This document shows, piece after piece, positions 22,501 to 22,966 of a stretch of DNA of 37,168 nucleotides. Each line of letters starts with the position of its first letter. The first letter of the stretch is position 1. The stretch covers positions 1-37,168 of the forward strand of contig JAICIO010000051.1 of NCBI GenBank assembly GCA_025924315.1. The letters are read 5' to 3'. Source of the DNA: Phycisphaerae bacterium (GTDB lineage Bacteria; Planctomycetota; Phycisphaerae; Tepidisphaerales; Tepidisphaeraceae). Both the position numbers and the translations under genes were made by a program. The notes beneath the pieces were generated by a model. The model was given only the letters and a program-made list of their open reading frames with translations. It made no database searches and was not told where the DNA came from.

Positions 22501-22706
22501 TCGCGGGCACCGCGGCTCTCTGACATCGTCGACGCTCCGCCAGCGGAAGGAAGCGTGCTCCACTGCTGGACGAGCTCGTTTAAAACACCGCCGATCTGGT
22601 CGGGGCTGAGAGTGTAACCGCAGATGTAAATGCTGACCCGGGCTTTCCCCTTCAAACGCGCTTGCAGCCGCGAAATGGGCGGCTTGACATCGACCCGGAC
22701 CGCCAT
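22494..22706 (-). pseudogene. deletion remnant of the cheB-like locus
   Basis: A 70-codon frame reads MAVRVDVKPPISR at its start and CGYTLSPDQIGGVLNELV with STLPSAGGAS at its end. The first part matches the flank upstream of the cheB-like gene (21048-21082). The second matches CDYILSPDQIAGVLTQLV and STLPSAGGAS near the end of its CheB domain (20340-20445). Order and orientation are the same, so about 570 bp, including most of the CheB coding region, are missing between them. Confidence 0.75.
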
Positions 22707-22711
22707 AAAGT
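22684..22711 (+). promoter_or_regulatory. possible promoter of the tRNA-Asn unit
   Basis: TTGACA (22684-22689), 16 bp, TAAAGT (22706-22711), on the strand of the tRNA. The TTGACA is part of a segment also present at 21059-21064, so it may be fortuitous. Confidence 0.35.
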
Positions 22712-22718
22712 AAGGCGC

Positions 22719-22746
22719 TCGCGGGCCCCAAGCCCGCGATCTTTTT
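22719..22746 (+). terminator. hairpin with T-tract just before the tRNA-like array
   Basis: TCGCGGGC (22719-22726) pairs with GCCCGCGA (22732-22739), loop CCCAA, then TCTTTTT running into the first tRNA-like unit. It could end transcription from the gene at 22204. The T run is also the left edge of the tandem array. Confidence 0.6.
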
Positions 22747-22807
22747 CGGCAGTAGCTCAATGGTAGAGTCCCGACTTGTCGGGATTAACCGACTGAGTTT
22801 GCAAGTT
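22746..22807 (+). pseudogene. truncated tRNA-Asn-like unit 1
   Basis: It contains the acceptor 5' strand TCGGCAG, a complete D-arm (TAGCTCAATGGTAGAG), an inserted TCCCGACTT, then an anticodon-like stem GTCGG/CCGAC whose loop is GATTAA instead of CTGTTAA. The T-arm is degraded (GTTTGCAAGTTT) and the acceptor 3' strand is absent, so it cannot make a tRNA. Tandem with unit 2 at an exact 62-bp period. Confidence 0.85.
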
Positions 22808-22869
22808 TCGGCAGTAGCTCAATAGTAGAGTCCCGACTCGTCGGGATTAACCGACTGAGTTTGCAAGTT
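22808..22869 (+). pseudogene. truncated tRNA-Asn-like unit 2
   Basis: Same structure as unit 1, with two base differences (D-loop CAATAGTAG, and ACTCGTC for ACTTGTC). It abuts the intact tRNA-Asn at 22870, keeping the 62-bp spacing. Confidence 0.85.
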
Positions 22870-22941
22870 TCGGCAGTAGCTCAATGGTAGAGCAGTCGGC
22901 TGTTAACCGACTGGTTGTAGGTTCGAGTCCTACCTGCCGAG
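22870..22941 (+). tRNA. tRNA-Asn (anticodon GTT)
   Basis: 7-bp acceptor stem TCGGCAG/CTGCCGA, D-arm TAGCTCAATGGTAGAGCA, anticodon stem GTCGG/CCGAC with loop CTGTTAA (anticodon GTT), T-arm GTAGG-TTCGAGT-CCTAC, discriminator G. CCA is not encoded. Confidence 0.95.
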
Positions 22942-22966
22942 TTTCCCTCTGTTGCGTTTGACGATC

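Follow-up and report, generated by a model that had tools for sequence, protein, structure and literature searches.

The window analysed here, a 37,168-nt stretch of Phycisphaerae DNA, carries directly upstream of its tRNA-Asn gene a tandem array of truncated tRNA-Asn copies in which the 5' strand of the anticodon stem is replaced by a palindrome. Across several phyla this kind of substitution recurs at one position of the tRNA and is tied to genes for GIY-YIG nucleases, which an earlier reading of the window (the first-pass annotation) had missed. The array is judged, with slightly better than even confidence, to be the trace left by a GIY-YIG element of the chromosome that targets tRNA genes and works like SegB of phage T6, a GIY-YIG homing endonuclease which is encoded beside tRNA genes and cleaves inside them (PMC13096335). 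Bacterial loci share the parts of the SegB system, namely tandem arrays and a nuclease gene whose 3' end is homologous to the 5' half of a neighbouring tRNA gene, and the array in the window is therefore read as a remnant. It is somewhat probable that the array is not primarily a decayed or regulatory structure and forms one end of a GIY-YIG system that is linked to tRNA genes and present in several phyla.

Two 62-bp units make up the array (22746-22869), unit 1 occupying positions 22746-22807 and unit 2 positions 22808-22869 on the forward strand, directly 5' of the intact tRNA-Asn(GTT) gene (22869-22942, forward strand) and in register with it. Tandem Repeats Finder delimits the array at 22744-22892 with a period of 62, 2.4 copies, 96% matches, no indels and a score of 284, the runner-up array in the window scoring 139. 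The intact gene is the single tRNA called in the window by ARAGORN and Rfam (74 bits) and the sole tRNA-Asn recognised in the assembly by the searches used, and neither 62-bp unit scored as a tRNA when the window was scanned with both tools, bearing out the first-pass description of truncated copies whose period runs into the real tRNA. Each unit consists in order of TCGGCAGTAGCTCAATGGTAGAG, corresponding to the acceptor 5' strand and D-arm and differing by one base in unit 2, the palindrome TCCCGACNNGTCGGGA, TTAACCGACTG, corresponding to the end of the anticodon loop and the 3' anticodon strand, and AGTTTGCAAGTT, after which the next copy begins. The acceptor 5' strand and D-arm are thus retained and the acceptor 3' strand is missing, as had been recognised before, and the T-arm is likewise absent.

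The palindromes, to which no strand was assigned, occur at 22769-22784 in unit 1 (TCCCGACTTGTCGGGA) and 22831-22846 in unit 2 (TCCCGACTCGTCGGGA), and abut TTAACC directly. Where the tRNA gene reads GAG, CAGTCGGCTG and TTAACC, the unit reads GAG, a 16-bp palindrome with 7-bp arms (TCCCGAC-TT-GTCGGGA) and TTAACC. Since the intact gene has CAGTCGGCTG at the position of the palindrome, the alteration is a replacement; the inserted TCCCGACTT reported previously is better understood in this way. The units differ at the two bases counted before (G/A at 22762 versus 22824 and T/C at 22778 versus 22840) and both bear the palindrome, supporting the proposal that the altered form was amplified after it arose, and the resemblance of TTTCGG to the T-loop sequence GTTCGA makes the suggested microhomology-driven duplication plausible. 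The genome search advised at that stage located no further unit copies in the 6.57-Mb draft genome, close matches being confined to the window locus. A chance tandem repeat is ruled out by the Tandem Repeats Finder score together with the like anatomy found in other genomes, and an assembly artefact is unlikely since this anatomy is seen in unrelated, independent assemblies.

A probable sigma-70-type promoter of the tRNA-Asn gene (TTGACA-16-TAAAGT; 22684-22711, forward strand) was located by a promoter scan and comparison with relatives, and a sequence scan revealed a terminator-like hairpin with a T-run (22719-22746, forward strand) between this promoter and the array. Most relatives have a TTGAC box upstream of tRNA-Asn and two share the identical TAAAGT; in the latter, which have no array, about 33 nt separate the -10 box from the tRNA-Asn gene. 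In the window it is the first unit, at about 35 nt from the -10 box, that matches this spacing, and not the intact gene, suggesting that the array was laid between the promoter and the tRNA-Asn gene. The units are consequently likely to form part of the tRNA-Asn precursor, with the array probably transcribed as its leader, and to this extent the earlier idea of an unusual precursor is retained. The RNA fold predicted for both units together is stabler than those of shuffled sequences (z -5.5), mostly as a result of the palindromes. Within one genus a compensatory change distinguishes the T-stems of array units (L128 and L126 versus L122), these being GTAGG/CCTAC in G148 and GTCGG/CCGGC in G163 and G138, which hints at a constraint at the RNA level. 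The position between promoter and gene, the stable fold and the compensatory change would all be expected of a functional leader RNA, whose tRNA-like precursor hairpins might tune tRNA-Asn processing by binding a factor such as RNase P or AsnRS. Such a function is nevertheless clearly unlikely, given that unit length ranges from 62 to 109 bp and the tRNA parts retained differ among genomes, that the array is absent from most relatives and that the units have no Rfam match. Nothing was found that backs the regulatory decoy proposed in the first-pass annotation in particular.

Of 397 genomes in the class, ten, including that of the window, contain a strict pattern comprising the end of the D-arm, a palindrome and TTAACC, and none contains the reversed pattern used as control. 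This comparison of the tRNA-Asn locus among relatives, which had also been recommended, brought to light both the altered copies and their linkage to GIY-YIG genes. Most of the 61 genomes searched with the locus contain a plain tRNA-Asn, altered copies being present in G014, G055 and G006, and like copies with the palindrome at the identical junction are found in Verrucomicrobiota and Nitrospirae metagenome-assembled genomes (MAGs). In G014, which belongs to the window's family, the syntenic locus (flanking gene 64% identical) contains one unit, the tRNA-Asn gene and, just 3' of it, the truncated start of a GIY-YIG gene (FWVYILENSAGP, followed by a stop). In G006 a GIY-YIG gene follows a tRNA-Asn 3' end, and two decayed GIY-YIG ends on another contig run into hairpin-marked tRNA fragments.

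Complete loci are arranged as tandem 5' tRNA-Asn copies, the intact tRNA-Asn gene, a GIY-YIG ORF and a 3' tRNA-Asn copy beginning in the D-arm, several of these 3' copies keeping an intact T-loop. The Verrucomicrobiota MAG locus L093 (JARKQH010000125.1) has two units at 74-bp spacing, the contig starting inside the first, and these are followed by tRNA-Asn, a GIY-YIG ORF ending in WIRENLLNGRVPTGRD and a stop, and a 3' tRNA-Asn copy whose T-arm has likewise given way to a hairpin (TCCCGA..TCGGGA); two more GIY-YIG copies with like ends are located downstream. In a MAG labelled Nitrospirae (L097), about seven 84-bp units (7.3 x; 99% identity) precede tRNA-Asn, the GIY-YIG gene and a marked 3' copy, and arrays of 3 x 80 bp and 3 x 103 bp are found elsewhere. 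With units so nearly identical, the arrays look recent. The 3' tRNA-Asn copy at L121/L135 contains separate palindromes, which flank TTAA and replace both strands of the anticodon stem. A partial tRNA-Ala copy with TCCCGACCTGTCGGGA is present in a Bacteroidia MAG (L100), upstream of an intact tRNA-Ala gene and a GIY-YIG gene.

The proteins encoded at the linked loci match the GIY-YIG domain in Pfam (PF01541, 56-62 bits). The ORF lies directly 3' of tRNA-Asn and its C-terminus (LLNGRVPTGRD, then a stop) is made from the tRNA D-arm and the palindrome: the D-arm sequence CTCAATGGTAGAG is translated as LNGR and the palindrome as VPTGRD, or as ASPPQAD in the TCCGCC-type group, while TTAACC supplies the stop (TAA), within the anticodon loop. 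In the corresponding frame, unit 1 of the window is translated as LNGRVPTCRD and unit 2 as LNSRVPTRRD, both ending in a stop. Each is preceded by a stop in the D-arm, and the units therefore encode no nuclease. The window contains no GIY-YIG gene or convincing relic of one, and the GIY-YIG genes of its genome are situated elsewhere. One GIY-YIG gene (L086, G000:C59) is found about 170 bp downstream of a tmRNA gene, that is, beside a tRNA-like gene.

Relatives of the G055 protein, which served as search query, were identified in the Verrucomicrobiota MAG (L093), L097, Phycisphaerae and others. At 22 of the 31 best GIY-YIG loci of the class an intact tRNA gene is present within 200 bp and always on the same strand, and the near flanks (11.9 kb in all) contain 23 tRNAs versus one in the farther flanks (67.9 kb); as the query itself derives from a tRNA-linked locus, these figures hold for its close relatives and not for GIY-YIG genes generally. 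On the 5' side the neighbouring tRNA is mostly tRNA-Asn and on the 3' side mostly tRNA-Pro, Val and Cys being represented too; at L152 the nearest is Cys, with tRNA-Asn also 5'. A parallel layout, in which a same-strand tRNA-Pro gene lies 3' of the GIY-YIG gene, is seen at L145, L147, L148, L149, L151, L156 and L163. A search of the phylum with the Verrucomicrobiota nuclease matched one of 199 genomes at an E value of 1e-12, indicating that the family is patchily distributed, and a phage collection yielded distant GIY-YIG matches only (best E value 1e-5, 37% identity). A literature search that covered few subscription journals returned no paper describing bacterial chromosomes with GIY-YIG genes linked to tRNA genes or with tRNA copies marked by hairpins. 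Tyrosine integrase-like ORFs, recognised by eye, follow tRNA-Asn or its marked 3' copy in two relatives (L006 and L133), where the locus may double as an island attachment site. These ORFs would suit an origin of the array as the scar of a genomic island or intron with tRNA-Asn as attachment site, which is highly improbable: such scars duplicate the 3' end of the tRNA, whereas the duplicated part here is the 5' one, the ORFs listed near the window locus include no integrase, and in the window the tRNA alone reaches the Rfam gathering score, with no match to group I or group II intron or T-box models.

In all of approximately 30 distinct marked copies TTAA follows immediately on the palindrome, the boundary lying between anticodon positions 34 and 35, and the 5' border of the palindrome falls after GGTAGAG or GGTAGAGCGAG; the copies were chosen by requiring a hairpin before TTAA, so that it is their existence on several tRNA backgrounds, and not the percentage, that is informative. 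Palindromes abutting TTAA in this way span Planctomycetota, Verrucomicrobiota and Nitrospirae MAGs. The host's own tRNA provides the best or equal best match to the flanking letters in 23 of 33 marked copies, suggesting that these were made locally. The type of palindrome also tends to follow the genome: the TCCCG class shows the larger palindrome excess over the reversed control in all 12 genomes with TCCCG..CGGGA-type tRNA copies, and the TCCGCC class does so in four of the six with TCCGCC..GGCGGA-type copies and not in the other two. The Nitrospirae genome contains a dispersed TCCCGAAA..TTTCGGGA family resembling its array palindromes, and TCCCGAAAGCTTTCGGGA-like palindromes are dispersed through it in large number, among them TCCCGAAAGTATTCGGGA, which marks its 3' copy (an entry that could be the locus itself). 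In the window's genome the TCCCG-type class is not in excess (106 versus 140 in the control), although one member of the class, exact TCCCGGCGCGCCGGGA, occurs in about 29 dispersed copies (G000, e.g. L039-L053; control 0). Several of these tip longer inverted repeats, such as GTGGCACAG[..]CTGTGCCAC. The unit palindromes are not mere members of this commonest genomic palindrome, from which they differ in sequence.

Such dispersed palindromes exist in many of these genomes, and one of them could have entered a duplicated tRNA copy by chance and been amplified through microhomology, with the nuclease a bystander using a recombination-prone locus. The lack of a nuclease at the window locus and the near-identity of its units agree with neutral slippage of this kind, which is rather unlikely in view of the identical tRNA junction across phyla and tRNA backgrounds, the nuclease ORF tail made from a like palindrome, and the nuclease relic at the syntenic locus of G014 in the same family. 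Decay alone, one of the roles considered in the first-pass annotation, leaves the recurrence of the palindrome across phyla and the GIY-YIG linkage unexplained.

Under the preferred reading, as the scar of a SegB-like chromosomal element, the nuclease would break the tRNA-Asn gene or a nearby copy, and RecA-type or microhomology-based repair through the D-arm repeat that the nuclease gene, at its 3' end, has in common with the 5' half of the tRNA would duplicate or delete segments. Selection would keep one intact tRNA, and surplus copies would last only in a form without a working anticodon arm and, probably, without the nuclease target, the palindrome taking that place. Repeated unequal exchange could then expand short 5' units in the interval from promoter to gene. 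At the window locus the nuclease gene would have been lost or never been present, leaving the 5' array alone as the element's scar, marked by a host-type dispersed palindrome. Against this reading stand the lack of a GIY-YIG gene or convincing relic in the window, the intact T-loop of several 3' copies, which a SegB-like enzyme might still cut, the TCCCG class not being in excess in the window's genome, and the two TCCGCC-type genomes that break the type rule. A more far-reaching version, in which the nuclease attacks tRNA-Asn genes across phyla and uncuttable, hairpin-marked arrays, with a host-type palindrome placed exactly between anticodon positions 34 and 35, protect the host or make the element tolerable, is put forward tentatively and is doubtful as a whole. 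The data suggest a selfish nuclease whose targets are pieces of bacterial tRNA genes, which it also multiplies. If this is true, the newly described SegB logic of a nuclease next to a tRNA with tandem tRNA amplification would extend from phages to the bacterial chromosomes of several phyla. The precisely placed palindrome substitution in tRNA copies calls for a mechanism, and the short dispersed palindromes that are common but unexplained in such genomes would be connected with an enzyme and with a defined site of insertion, making their origin testable.

Tandem repeats containing part of a tRNA gene are also represented by the rtT repeats at E. coli tyrT, which contain the tRNA 3' end and are located downstream, whereas the array in the window contains the 5' part together with a palindrome and is located upstream. 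Short dispersed palindromes with a companion gene are found in REP/RAYT elements, e.g. REPINs (PMC3116915); the present loci differ in having a GIY-YIG rather than a Y1 transposase companion and a palindrome at one junction in tRNA copies. The GC clusters or double-hairpin elements of mitochondrial genomes are a mobile DNA family of very short, GC-rich, spreading palindromes (PMC4478555), from which the present palindromes are set apart by their bacterial hosts and fixed position inside tRNA copies. In the case of SegB, tandem repeats arise when the 5' region of the tRNA recombines with the 3' region of segB, the ends of the two sharing microhomology, and the reported cut motif is RAWTSGAAC (PMC13096335). 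In our reading, this motif resembles the reverse complement of the tRNA T-loop. SegB cuts tRNA genes, as the bacterial nucleases are predicted to do; the bacterial loci differ in being chromosomal and mostly at tRNA-Asn, and in surplus copies that are partial and palindrome-bearing beside a nuclease gene that is often decayed or, as in the window, absent. Like the free-standing SegB of T-even phages, the related bacterial loci encode a GIY-YIG protein beside a tRNA gene, with the nuclease gene homologous at its 3' end to the 5' part of the tRNA, and tandem amplification is evident in the arrays of two to seven units beside the tRNA, of which the nuclease may be the cause.
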